Part shown: positions 26,992 to 37,693 of the stretch, piece by piece
Layout: the number at the start of each line of letters is the position of its first letter
Position numbering within the stretch: position 1 is the stretch's first letter
DNA from: Pseudodesulfovibrio cashew
GTDB taxonomy: Bacteria; Desulfobacterota; Desulfovibrionia; Desulfovibrionales; Desulfovibrionaceae
DNA: 64,000 nt
Reading direction: 5' to 3'
Assembly: GCF_009762795.1 (NCBI RefSeq)
Contig: NZ_CP046400.1
Span: forward strand, 1,031,501-1,095,500
Made by a program: the position numbers and the translations under genes
Notes under the pieces: generated by a model
Seen by the model: the letters and a program-made list of their open reading frames with translations, nothing else
Databases searched by the model: none
What the model was told of the DNA's origin: nothing

Positions 26992-28947
26992 TTAATACGC
27001 CAATCTTCCCAGAGACTTCAGAATCAGCGTGCAGCCCATGGCGAACATGCCGGTCAAGCCCATGCCGCAGGAGAAGCCCGCGAGCAGGACCGGGGCATAG
27101 TGCCGCCACTGGGTGCCGTACTTCTTCAGGAAGTAGAACCGCCCGAGCAGCGCACCGATCACCTCCAGCAGCATGCCGTGGGGTGTGGACTGCCCGAGGC
27201 CGCGCACCACGCCGTAGACCAGCAGGACCGGCAGGCCGAGCACGTTGAGCACCGAATACAGGACCAGCCCGAGCCCCAGGCCGGACAGCACCACCGGACC
27301 GGACAACGCCTGGAAGAACAGGGAATTGCCTTCGAGTGTCGAGGTCTGCATGAGCAGCGTGTTCAGGGCCTGGAGATGCCACAGCTCCTGGGCGAAGGGA
27401 TACTCTGGCGAAGGGATGGGCGCGAGCTGCCACAGGAACTGGGAGAAGAACAGCGACGAGACCATGACGATGGGGAAGACGAGGATCTCGGCCTTGATGA
27501 TGCCGCGCAGGCTGGTGCCTGTCAGCTCGATCTGCCGGAACTGAACCGTGGCCTCGCCGTAGTTGTGGATGGGGATGGGCGCGTACCAGATTTCCAGCCC
27601 CTGGTAGCCAAAAAACTTGGCCCCGGCGATGAACGAGAACTCCCGGACCATGGGCAGGGACACGAACTGGCCGGCCACGCCCTCCATGCGTGCGGTGATG
27701 TACGAGATCACCGGGGTATACACGAACCCGTAGATCACGAAGAAAATCCACGGGAACGACGGCACCAGCCAGACGCAGAAGGCAATATAGCACAGCGTCG
27801 AAAAGACGTAGATGCCGATGGAAACCCAGAAATTGATGTCGCCCCGCCCGGCCGGTGGGTTGAACAGCGCCGAGAAATCCAGTCCGCCCTCCTTCTTGTG
27901 GAAGGACTTGAACACGTAGTAGACGCCCACCGCACCGATGGCCAGACCCAGGCCGATGCCGAAGCTCATGTAAAAGTCGAAGTTATTGGCAAAAACAGTC
28001 TCGACCGTGGCCATGCCGGGATGCCAGCGGTGCAGGATGCCGTGGGCGTACAGGATCGGGTTGGCCACGATGGTCACGATCAGCCCGAGCAGTCCGCCAA
28101 TGACCGCCCAGAAAGGCAGGACCATGCCGATGAAGACCAGCCCCAGATCGAACTGGATGCCGGTAGCGACCGCAGGGAGCACGTCCTCGGTGTGCTGGGT
28201 CAGTTCGATCCATGGAATGGGAATGAGCCGTATGGGCTCGGTGAACAGCAGCCCGGACAGGGCCGGTAGCAGCACGTAGAAAAATCCGAAGGCCAGCCCG
28301 ATGACCCCGCCGATGGAGAAAACCCGCCACTTCCAGCCGGTCTTGCGGTCCTCGGTGGACTCGGCCAGGGCCATGGTGCCGAGCGCGCCCACCGGGGCCA
28401 TGGGGAACGGCAGCTTCTCCACGTCCGATGTGATCCGGTAGAGCGAATAGCCCAACCCGAAATGGTCGATGCGCTGCACCAGTTGCGCGCCCACAAGCAG
28501 CAGGATCGGCACCAGCCAGTCCCGGTGCAGGAACGTCCGCTCCAGATACGAACCCGAGCCCAGGGCTGGGGCCACCCATTGCGGGATGAATTCGGTCAGC
28601 CCGAGCATGCGCGCCGCGTCGGACTGGACAATGTACTGGTTCCACAACAATCCCTGGAACGGTGAGGCCAGGGCCGCTCCTGCCATATAGTAGAGCAGGA
28701 ATATTTCCTGTTGTTTCAGATGGGTATAGGACCGCTTGGCGATCTCGGCAAAAAGGATGATCGTCACCCACCGGGCAGCCGGGCCGATGCCCTGCCCGAT
28801 GACCAGTTGCAGGTACATGGAGCCCGGCATCATCAGGAAACCGATGAACACCGCCCCCACGATCGTCTTCCAGTCAAAGCCCTCCTCGAAATGCTCGGGC
28901 GGCTTCATCAGGTCGCGATACTCTTGCAGTTCCTTATCGTCGTACAT
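26992..28947 (-). CDS. OPT-superfamily transporter-like membrane protein
   Basis: The roughly 651-residue integral membrane protein has about 14-16 hydrophobic segments. FDWKTIVGAVFIGFLMMPGSMYLQL near the start, split by a conserved-looking GIGPAARWVTIILFAEIAKRS, and SDVEKLPFPMAPVGALGTMAL resemble the oligopeptide-transporter superfamily; deltaproteobacterial homologues are labelled peptide transporters. Substrate is unknown: OPT proteins carry peptides or metal chelates. The start at 28947 gives MYDDKELQEYRD; an ATG at 28974 has AGGAGG upstream, but both lie in a dispersed repeat. It is the last gene of the leftward ABC/DUF6785 cluster, 217 bases after its neighbour. Confidence 0.65.
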   Translation of the reverse strand: MYDDKELQEYRDLMKPPEHFEEGFDWKTIVGAVFIGFLMMPGSMYLQLVIGQGIGPAARWVTIILFAEIAKRSYTHLKQQEIFLLYYMAGAALASPFQGLLWNQYIVQSDAARMLGLTEFIPQWVAPALGSGSYLERTFLHRDWLVPILLLVGAQLVQRIDHFGLGYSLYRITSDVEKLPFPMAPVGALGTMALAESTEDRKTGWKWRVFSIGGVIGLAFGFFYVLLPALSGLLFTEPIRLIPIPWIELTQHTEDVLPAVATGIQFDLGLVFIGMVLPFWAVIGGLLGLIVTIVANPILYAHGILHRWHPGMATVETVFANNFDFYMSFGIGLGLAIGAVGVYYVFKSFHKKEGGLDFSALFNPPAGRGDINFWVSIGIYVFSTLCYIAFCVWLVPSFPWIFFVIYGFVYTPVISYITARMEGVAGQFVSLPMVREFSFIAGAKFFGYQGLEIWYAPIPIHNYGEATVQFRQIELTGTSLRGIIKAEILVFPIVMVSSLFFSQFLWQLAPIPSPEYPFAQELWHLQALNTLLMQTSTLEGNSLFFQALSGPVVLSGLGLGLVLYSVLNVLGLPVLLVYGVVRGLGQSTPHGMLLEVIGALLGRFYFLKKYGTQWRHYAPVLLAGFSCGMGLTGMFAMGCTLILKSLGRLAY

Positions 28948-28954
28948 CCGTTTT

Positions 28955-29010
28955 CCCCCCGGCCCCCCTCCCATCTCCCCTCCTAAACTTCTTGGCGCGC
29001 TTCGCGGGGC
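28955..29010 (+). repeat. Dispersed element 1, partial copy B
   Basis: CTCCCATCTCCCCTCCTAAAC followed by TTCTTGGCGCGCTTCGCGG matches the right end of copy A at 26521-26575. It lies at the 5' end of the OPT gene and supplies the AGGAGG in front of an alternative start codon. Confidence 0.6.
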
Positions 29011-29164
29011 AGGTATGGCAGGTCCGGTATGGTTAATTACAATTCATCTCTTCGCATCACTCCGCAAAAGCGGTCAGGGGCAAAAACCCAGAGCGTCTTT
29101 TGCTGTCAGTTGCCGCCAAGAAGGCGGCTTCCTCATTCTCTTCCCTCTTGAGGCTGCTCGCCCT

Positions 29165-36129: not shown

Positions 36130-36132
36130 GCG

Positions 36133-36915
36133 CTACGCCCCGTTCCCGCCGGTCTTGCCGTTTGCGGAGCGGCCCGCGAGCTTCTCGCCGATGCCGCCGA
36201 TGGAAATATCCAGCTCCTCGCGCTTCTCCACCCGGTCGACCATACCGTCGCGGACCCAGACCACACGGTCGGAAACGTTGAGCATCTTGTAGTCGTGGGT
36301 GGCAGAGATGACAGTCACTCCGCGCTCGCTGGAGAGCATCTGGAGCAGCTCGATGATCTCCTCGCCGGTGGTCAGGTCCAGGTTGCCGGTGGGCTCGTCC
36401 GCCAGGATGATGGCCGGATCGTTGGCCAGGGAGCGGGCCACGGCCACGCGCTGCTGCTGACCGCCGGAGAGCTCCAGGGGCTTGTGCTGGAAGCGTTCGC
36501 CCAGCCCCACCAGCTTGAGCAGTTCGATGCCCTTGTCCTGGGCGTCGTCCGCGTTCATGCCGGCGAAGGTCATGGGCAGGGTCACGTTCTCCAGGGCGGT
36601 CATGACCGGGATCAGGTTGAAAGTCTGGAAGATGTAGCCGATCTTGCGGTTCCGGAGCCAGGCCAGCTCGTAGGCGTCGAGCTGGGAGATGTCCACCTCG
36701 TCGATGAAGACCTTGCCGTCCGTGGGCTTGTCCAGGCCGCCGATCATGTTGAACAGGGTGGATTTGCCCGAGCCCGAGGGCCCCATGATGGAGATGTACT
36801 CCCCGGCGTAGATCTCCAGATCCACGCCCTTGAGGGCGTCCAGCTTCTGCTTGCCCATGACAAAGGTCTTTTTCACGCCCACCACGCGGACTATGGTCCG
36901 TTTCTCGTCGCTCAT
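36133..36915 (-). CDS. ABC transporter ATP-binding protein, MacB/LolD type
   Basis: The 260-residue ATPase has Walker [11 protein letters not shown], the LolD/MacB-type stretch [23 protein letters not shown]-loop [23 protein letters not shown], signature [32 protein letters not shown] (split motif) and the switch histidine in [10 protein letters not shown]. This subfamily partners FtsX-type permeases that act as mechanotransmitters instead of conventional importers. The ATG at 36915 is preceded by GAGGGAAG. Both flanking genes encode FtsX-type permeases, so the complex is probably one ATPase dimer with two different permeases. The last 30 residues are a polar tail. Confidence 0.95.
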
Positions 36916-36988
36916 ACAATCTTCCCTCGACCGCAGGCCCGCGCGGTCGCGTCTTGGTGTCGCGGGTGCGGCGCACCCGCCCTGCTCC

Positions 36989-37693
36989 CTAGTGTTCCGC
37001 CCTGATGGCCTTGATAGGCTCCATACGCGCGGCAAGCAGCGCCGGATACAGCACCCCCACCAGGCTCAGGAAACAGCCGGCCAGGGTGGCCAGCCCCACG
37101 GAAATGGCGGCGTCCGCAAGTGAAAGGCCGGACAATGCGCCCAGGCCGAAGCTGACGGTTCCGGCCAGCAGGGAGAACAGGCACCCGGCCAGCGCGCCGA
37201 TGGCTGCGCCGAGCAGCCCCTGCATGGCCGCCTCCAGCAAAAAAAGTTTGAGGATCATCGAGTCCAGAGCCCCGAGGCACTTCATGACCCCGATCTCGGC
37301 GAAACGTTCGGTCACGGACATGAGCTGGGCGTTGACGATGCCAACGGTGCACACAAGCAGTGAGAGCATGACGATCCACCGCTCCTTGGCCGACATGGCC
37401 ACCGCGCCCCTGGCCAGGTCCACGTCGTAGCCTGCCTTGGAGAGGATGCGGGCCGCTTCCTGCCCGTGCTCGCGGAGCAGCCCGGCGGCCACGTCGAGGT
37501 TGACCAGCACGAACGAAAGGAACGACACCGCCAGCACCAGGCTGGACACGGTGATCATCGACCGGAAAAACCGGACCCGAAGGCTCTTGAAGCTGATCTC
37601 CAGGGATTTGGAGAAGGGCAGCGTGATGAGCCTGTCAATGGACTTTCGCGACCCGCCCACACCGGTTGCGGACGGCGCGCCGTTGGCGCTCAT
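36989..37693 (-). CDS. Compact FtsX-like ABC permease
   Basis: The 234-residue permease has four predicted helices (about 45-68, 105-125, 150-180, 195-222). It contains the FtsX core: SVTERFAEIGVMKCLGALDSMILKLFLLEA and the ending YPALLAARMEPIKAIRAE. The large extracytoplasmic domain usual in MacB/LolC proteins is missing; the loop after helix 1 is only about 35 residues. The start at 37693 has GAGGTG just upstream; an ATG six codons earlier lacks such a signal. First gene of the leftward cluster, with a good promoter at 37739-37767. Confidence 0.9.
   Translation of the reverse strand: MSANGAPSATGVGGSRKSIDRLITLPFSKSLEISFKSLRVRFFRSMITVSSLVLAVSFLSFVLVNLDVAAGLLREHGQEAARILSKAGYDVDLARGAVAMSAKERWIVMLSLLVCTVGIVNAQLMSVTERFAEIGVMKCLGALDSMILKLFLLEAAMQGLLGAAIGALAGCLFSLLAGTVSFGLGALSGLSLADAAISVGLATLAGCFLSLVGVLYPALLAARMEPIKAIRAEH

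Follow-up and report, generated by a model that had tools for sequence, protein, structure and literature searches.

Closest described systems and the five-gene locus

The gene set described here has its closest counterparts among type VII ATP-binding cassette (ABC) systems, OPT/YSL transporters and proteins of the M28 aminopeptidase fold. LolC and LolE are two unlike permeases, and in the transferrin receptor and nicastrin a catalytically dead M28 head serves as a receptor or gate. We know of no pairing of a type VII ABC unit with OPT-fold proteins. Here we analysed a 64,000-nucleotide stretch of Pseudodesulfovibrio cashew (contig NZ_CP046400.1, positions 1,031,501 to 1,095,500 of the forward strand; hereafter the window), in which five leftward genes at 26992-37693, all of membrane-transport type, encode a compact FtsX-type permease, an ATPase, a giant FtsX-type permease, a DUF6785 protein and a fifth, polytopic protein. 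Judging from co-occurrence and gene order, the set is highly likely to form one functional system. Its parts, together with a deacetylase gene next to them, are as follows.

36989-37693 (-), compact FtsX-type permease, PF02687
36133-36915 (-), MacB/LolD-type ATPase of 260 residues, PF00005
31168-36129 (-), giant FtsX-type permease of 1653 residues
34210-36045 (-), predicted pseudo-M28 aminopeptidase head of the giant permease, residues ~29-640, with a PA-like insert at residues 115-198
31708-32955 (-), FtsX core of the giant permease, from the transmembrane (TM) span at residues 1059-1085 to residue 1474
29165-31171 (-), DUF6785 + DUF6784 protein of 668 residues, PF20581 and PF20580
26992-28947 (-), fifth (polytopic) protein of 651 residues, without a named family
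37770-38597 (-), NodB-like polysaccharide deacetylase (PDA), PF01522, possibly the first gene of the unit

The five leftward genes of the earlier note were recovered at corrected coordinates, and so was their close spacing, with 73 bases between the compact permease and ATPase genes, 3 bases between the ATPase and giant permease genes, and a 4-base ATGA overlap at the giant permease/DUF6785 junction. The fifth gene was assigned a start at ATG 28947, not at 28974 as given earlier, because the N-terminal motif M-x-(D/E)-D-(K/R)-E-L is common to most of the orthologues viewed; this start gives 651 residues and a 217-base gap after the DUF6785 gene. The compact permease gene may start at ATG 37693, where the ribosome-binding site looks better, or at ATG 37711. 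The description of the unit as promoter-led found no support: the region has three sigma-70-like matches compared to 1.7 (standard deviation 1.2) in shuffles, which is near chance level, and the deacetylase gene lies 58-76 bases upstream of the compact permease gene on the same strand. That deacetylase gene was absent from the gene list of the earlier note, and the unlinked partner loci described below were outside its view.

Co-occurrence and gene order of the set

All surveys were made within the phylum, on 60 relatives and 395 phylum genomes, with 14 control genomes; the genome-wide tests covered three genes, those of the giant permease, DUF6785 and the fifth protein. The giant permease (as a long match) and DUF6785 were found in the same 37 of the 60 relatives, hereafter termed core-positive. 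The remaining 23 relatives have neither, and 11 of them gave only short FtsX-domain matches. The fifth gene is present in 35 of the 37 core-positive relatives, and in the other two (G016 and G029) the contig ends first. Of the 395 phylum genomes, 28 have DUF6785 over its cut-off, and the fifth protein was found in precisely these 28. They belong to 12 families by label, and all 28 carry the giant permease (22 in fetched loci, five more, and the window's own). One genome, G060, has a single 70-residue DUF6785 match with a stop, under the cut-off, and has neither the giant permease nor the fifth gene. DUF6785 was found in none of the 14 control genomes. Three genera include both states, with 34/36, 2/5 and 1/4 genomes core-positive, and within them the core genes flip together. 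Genes for OPT-like or DUF6785 (over cut-off) proteins independent of the giant permease, whose occurrence would by the earlier note have spoken against a single system, were found in none of the 37 relatives or 28 phylum genomes.

Gene order is also conserved. The compact permease, ATPase, giant permease, DUF6785 and fifth genes follow one another on one strand in 47 of the 51 named loci with room upstream; the four remaining loci lack at least one of the five genes there. The exact 4-base overlap recurs at 46 of 106 giant permease-DUF6785 junctions, and the gap before the fifth gene has a median of 84 bases across loci. Six split clusters (G354, G313, G165, G132, G031 and G009) retain the giant permease, DUF6785 and the fifth gene, and in G354 and G313 the ATPase still adjoins the giant permease. 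In G031 the fifth gene is unlinked, possibly as a decaying or reduced form of the system. In a contig scan, the best 80 of 229 relatives were all titled deltaproteobacterial, Desulfobacterota or unspecific proteobacterial; no plasmid homologues of DUF6785 were found.

Predicted OPT/YS1 fold of the DUF6785 protein

The DUF6785 protein matches PF20581 (2.5e-141) and PF20580 (6.6e-33), and these are its only Pfam matches at E<=1; the OPT family PF03169 gave none. In the literature searched, DUF6785 and DUF6784 were named nowhere. An AlphaFold2 model built with 39 diverse orthologues reached a predicted local distance difference test (pLDDT) score of 87.5 and a predicted template modelling (pTM) score of 0.89. 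In a Foldseek search with this model, the two entries for barley YS1 stood alone at E 3.3e-8 and 1.6e-7, the next match being at 0.2. Alignment with VIA-align gave a Z of 22.1 against YS1 (7wsr) over 558 residues, compared to 6.3 for the next unrelated chain among the matches listed. Consistently, a profile built from ten OPT proteins was aligned with DUF6785 by hhalign, with E 1.7e-5 in local and 1.7e-8 in global mode, and the reversed control had a probability of 0.2-0.3%. According to the YS1 structure report, the two domains of YS1 had no significant structural homologues at that time (PMC9691689), which argues that the match is specific. From the model, the DUF6785 protein almost certainly adopts the OPT/YS1 fold, in agreement with the OPT-likeness proposed for the locus earlier.

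ABC parts and the M28-like head of the giant permease

The compact permease matches PF02687 over the cut-off (7.3e-15, residues 114-232 of the 240-residue reading), and hydropathy indicates roughly four hydrophobic spans, the first and second being joined by a very short loop. The ATPase matches PF00005 at 3.3e-34, and its best NCBIfam model is LolD (4.7e-68), further best matches being MacB and DevA. Both assignments agree with the earlier note. Against the NCBIfam equivalog cut-offs, the ATPase stays under all three models compared (LolD 229/307.75 bits, MacB 215.6/966 and FtsE 203/264.85), and the LolCE model gave 44.6/362.45 bits. The giant permease matches PF02687 over the cut-off as well (2e-9), and MacB_PCD (PF12704) at 25.9 bits, just under the cut-off of 27, with MacB_PCD matches in 8 of 17 members. 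From the N- to the C-terminus, it comprises a signal peptide, the M28-like head with the PA-like insert, an unmatched middle region and three extra TM spans, followed by one TM span, a MacB_PCD-like loop, three TM spans and a cytoplasmic tail (topology from hydropathy). The head and the MacB_PCD-like loop are both expected to be periplasmic. These matches identify the ATPase and both FtsX permeases as components of the type VII ABC kind, and all three stay below the cut-offs of the named systems.

The peptidase-like head recognised in the earlier note is borne out by a profile of 17 orthologues, which aligns at profile positions 29-318 with the aminopeptidase 2ek8 (E 1e-6). Peptidase_M28 matches were obtained in 9 of the 17 members and PA matches in 11; the window's own giant permease gave no Peptidase_M28 match in Pfam. 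Among 99 aligned sequences, the position of the first metal His holds no His at all (F in 83, P in 9, S in 4, R in 2 and A in 1), the last metal His is kept in one, and the catalytic EE pair is found in the aligned stretch of none. The Asp of the PGAD motif is kept in 94 of the 99 and is Gly in the window's own giant permease, and the final T-P-x-D of the head is invariant. Because the 2ek8 alignment persists with the metal ligands and EE pair missing, the M28 chemistry appears lost and the fold kept, and the head is very probably a catalytically dead M28 aminopeptidase.

In a PADLOC search, the giant permease matched the CARF_LolE_TM models PDLC01991/PDLC01990 through its TM/FtsX part (3.7e-48 and 1.7e-11), the best stretch of the stronger match being residues 875-1261 and the best stretches covering only TM/FtsX parts; the compact permease matched the same models weakly (3.5e-8). 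Seven generic ATPase matches (best mad3, 1.1e-29) were also obtained, and the other five proteins given had no PADLOC match. A defence system was considered and rejected, as these CARF_LolE TM/FtsX and generic ATPase matches were all that PADLOC returned. The match of the permease core to CARF_LolE_TM is a hint that the family is wider and its heads exchangeable.

The fifth protein

The fifth protein matched no Pfam or NCBIfam family and no significant PDB relative, and neither BLAST nor hhalign related it to DUF6785. It is 71-94% identical to 19 orthologues across the phylum and is the most conserved of the five parts in most loci compared, the ATPase being equal or ahead in several. The C-terminus of the G132 orthologue gave a sub-threshold match to PF03169 (E 7.9e-4, 18.7 bits compared to a cut-off of 25.8), the sole sub-threshold match of the OPT model in 118 genomes. 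The fifth protein may be a divergent OPT relative. The earlier label of OPT-type finds weak agreement in the G132 match and none in the family and PDB searches.

Accessory partners and regulation

Downstream of the fifth gene, at least one of four further genes, termed C0, C1, PqqD-like and ABCB, is present in 37 of the 50 named loci with room. C0 (~298 residues) is without a family; C1 (~206 residues) has an N-terminal hydrophobic span and is probably exported; ABCB is an MsbA-like ABC protein. According to hhalign, the tail, middle, head and PCD regions of the giant permease are unrelated to C0, C1 and PqqD. C1 (E<=0.001) and ABCB (E<=1e-100) are each found in 36 of the 37 core-positive and none of the 23 core-negative relatives. 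C0 was found in 13 of the 395 phylum genomes, all core-positive, and in none of the 367 core-negative ones; at most six candidates were scored per genome, so misses are possible.

Genes for STAS, RsbW-like, cNMP-binding and SpoIIE phosphatase proteins often accompany this downstream group. In the genome of the window (the window lying at 1031-1095 kb) the partners are unlinked: PqqD, C0 and C1 lie at ~636-640 kb (L292) with a divergent MASE10-SpoIIE gene alongside, and ABCB lies at ~884-890 kb (L312) with a SpoIIE/HATPase gene and STAS. The SpoIIE-type phosphatases that adjoin the partner genes are at L292:11125-12567 (with a MASE10 sensor) and L312:5688-8408 (a HAMP + HATPase fusion), and their position suggests partner-switching control. 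The SiaA match of the SpoIIE-type phosphatase is weak and far under the cut-off. By eye, ABCB (L312:8430-10955) has ~250-300 extra residues within its ATPase domain, where the Q-loop region is seemingly repeated.

Substrate hints

The deacetylase matches PF01522 at 33.7 bits, compared to a cut-off of 23.1, and its residues D43, D44, H98, H102, H227 and H228 are invariant in 20 orthologues. An orthologue (E<1e-90) is present in 26 of the 37 core-positive and none of the 23 core-negative relatives; a second, weaker deacetylase family (E near 1e-30), which also occurs in the core-negative G006, was left out of this count.

PqqD-like proteins bind peptides. A PqqD-family gene lies directly 3' of an ordinary OPT gene in 6 of 11 plasmid loci chosen from 38 records (L276, L278, L279, L322, L323 and L324), the hosts being Halocatena, Halorientalis, Halobacterium, Eubacterium eligens, Peptoclostridium and Enterococcus gilvus, that is, haloarchaea and Bacillota. 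No PqqD gene adjoins the OPT gene in the Bacteroides, Comamonas, Collinsella and Actinomyces plasmid loci, and the Xanthomonas locus is unannotated. The OPT-PqqD partnership may be general. Moreover, all three same-genus loci examined carry a gene for a family-3 solute-binding protein (SBP_bac_3) between the DUF6785 and fifth genes (L071:4767-5546, L075:14132-14950 and L084:5803-6588). A peptide-like or small polar solute is favoured because of the PqqD-OPT association and the SBP_bac_3 insertion, and a peptide-like substrate is proposed tentatively. Proteins of the OPT/YS1 fold are known to carry soluble oligopeptides or metal chelates (PMC9691689). With this fold, the PqqD-like partner, the inserted SBP_bac_3 gene and the dead aminopeptidase head of the giant permease, transport of a peptide or metal chelate by the present set is plausible.

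Proposed mechanism and alternatives

We propose that the five genes, often preceded by the deacetylase gene, encode a single inner-membrane transport system. The two unlike FtsX permeases and the LolD/MacB-like ATPase would form a type VII ABC unit, in which the dead M28 head would serve as a binding or gating domain in the periplasm. ATP hydrolysis would set the head and periplasmic loop in motion, thereby loading or gating the carriers, DUF6785 and the fifth protein, for a peptide-like solute, the candidates being a peptide, a peptidic chelate or a modified peptide. The PqqD-like protein would be a cytosolic peptide binder, the MsbA-like ABC protein may be a peptide exporter, and SpoIIE/RsbW/STAS partner switching may provide the control. 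The reading we prefer, with less than full conviction, is the possible one in which a type VII ABC machine and OPT-fold carriers together handle a peptide-like solute; for a direct physical coupling of the ABC unit and the polytopic proteins, the case is evenly balanced. A bolder version, rather doubtful as a whole, would be a hybrid transporter in which the dead-peptidase-headed ABC unit mechanically drives or gates a heterodimeric OPT carrier with the fifth protein as its second half, assisted by a PqqD-like peptide chaperone. Such a transporter would export a small peptide (a metallophore or signal, for instance) and take it up again, with partner switching as its control. Support for the set as a unit is good, and the sequences themselves show its composition, gene order and co-occurrence, the lost M28 ligands and, by prediction, the DUF6785 fold; we infer the substrate and the physical coupling, as well as the complex itself, its heterodimeric ABC core, the role of the head, direction, ATP coupling and regulation.

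Several points weigh against the preferred reading. The earlier idea of a single system stood for the three genes tested genome-wide, as DUF6785 (over its cut-off) and the fifth gene were not found without the giant permease among the 60 relatives and 395 phylum genomes, but the ATPase and compact permease were checked in fetched loci only, and no compact permease was seen beside the ATPase-giant permease pairs of G354 and G313. The genomes share ancestry, and this relatedness inflates co-occurrence counts, so that odds computed from them are no formal probabilities. The accessory genes are not strictly required, because only 13 of the 28 core-positive phylum genomes gave C0 and G031, alone among the 37 core-positive relatives, has no C1 or ABCB match. 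The OPT signal of the fifth protein is weak: hhalign gave an OPT probability of 2.5%, in the same C-terminal region as the G132 match, compared to 0.4% for the reversed control; PF03169 was unmatched in 20 members; all of Pfam gave no OPT match in six orthologues, and no match of any kind in one of them, that of G132 read without its N-terminus; and an AlphaFold2 model of the fifth protein stayed at pLDDT 35. In addition, the motif-intact deacetylase and the GT28-like glycosyltransferase encoded upstream, each in 19 of the 47 complete named loci, favour a glycan substrate, and the OPT gene of an Actinomyces oris plasmid (L329), an ordinary one, is preceded by polysaccharide-deacetylase and glycosyltransferase genes.

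These upstream genes would fit an envelope lipid or glycolipid trafficking system. The ABC unit would then extract a hydrophobic or glycosylated envelope molecule, in the manner of LolCDE and YbbAP-TesA, the polytopic pair would be flippases or acceptors, and the GT28-like, deacetylase and MsbA-like proteins would make, trim or flip the molecule. The near-constant presence of the MsbA-like protein in core-positive relatives and the SiaA-like phosphatase match, weak as it is, also fit, and type VII systems can act on lipids or lipoproteins (PMC12646458). We nevertheless hold this unlikely, given the soluble cargo known for the OPT/YS1 fold, the peptide binding of PqqD-like proteins, and the 11 of 37 core-positive relatives without a deacetylase orthologue. 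An FtsEX-like signal or gate, in which force would make the dead-peptidase head switch an envelope enzyme (for example the deacetylase or, if it acts as an enzyme within the membrane, the fifth protein), is less probable still. Nicastrin's dead M28-type head gates presenilin, and nicastrin large-lobe matches did appear in 2 of the 17 giant permease members (best E 0.026); the unusual conservation of the fifth protein and the very short loop of the compact permease would suit a gate too. However, DUF6785 has a predicted carrier fold, no catalytic motif was recognised by eye in the fifth protein, and the deacetylase is dispensable. Separate transporters that are neighbours by chance would account for the DUF6785/fifth-gene pair standing apart from the ABC genes in G354, G313 and G165, and for the gaps before the fifth gene, of 217 bases in the window and a median of 84 across loci; yet the three tested genes co-occur without exception, even unlinked, and gene order is conserved over 12 phylum families and in nearly all named loci, which makes such an origin highly improbable.

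Joint action of the ABC unit and the OPT-fold proteins, if real, would link envelope mechanics driven by ATP with the fold of a secondary carrier in one system. In any case, DUF6785 gains a predicted fold, and a protein without a family emerges as a highly conserved member of a co-occurring set. The set is carried by some sulfate reducers and their relatives, and its function is testable in culturable sulfate reducers.

Comparison with known systems

LolCDE, MacAB-TolC, FtsEX and YbbAP-TesA share with the present set the FtsX permease fold, a MacB/LolD-like ATPase and a putative MacB_PCD-like periplasmic loop, and the two permeases are unlike each other here as in LolC/LolE. Compared to these type VII systems, the giant permease has a dead M28 head, three additional TM spans and a tail in the cytoplasm. 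The ABC parts also co-occur with two polytopic partners, and every reported equivalog cut-off is missed. With the OPT/YSL family (PF03169; barley YS1, 7wsr), DUF6785 has the predicted fold in common over its length, together with a remote profile match, and PqqD-like genes are associated both with ordinary OPT genes and with this set. DUF6785 differs from that family in having no PF03169 match and in its co-occurring ABC partners; the similarity of the fifth protein is weak. The M28 fold and PA-like insert of M28 aminopeptidases, nicastrin and the transferrin receptor are also present in the giant-permease head, which differs from them in its fusion to an ABC permease and in lacking the EE pair as well as the metal His residues at the first and last positions. 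The CARF_LolE_TM proteins of PADLOC share the TM and FtsX core, in front of which the present permease carries the M28 head.

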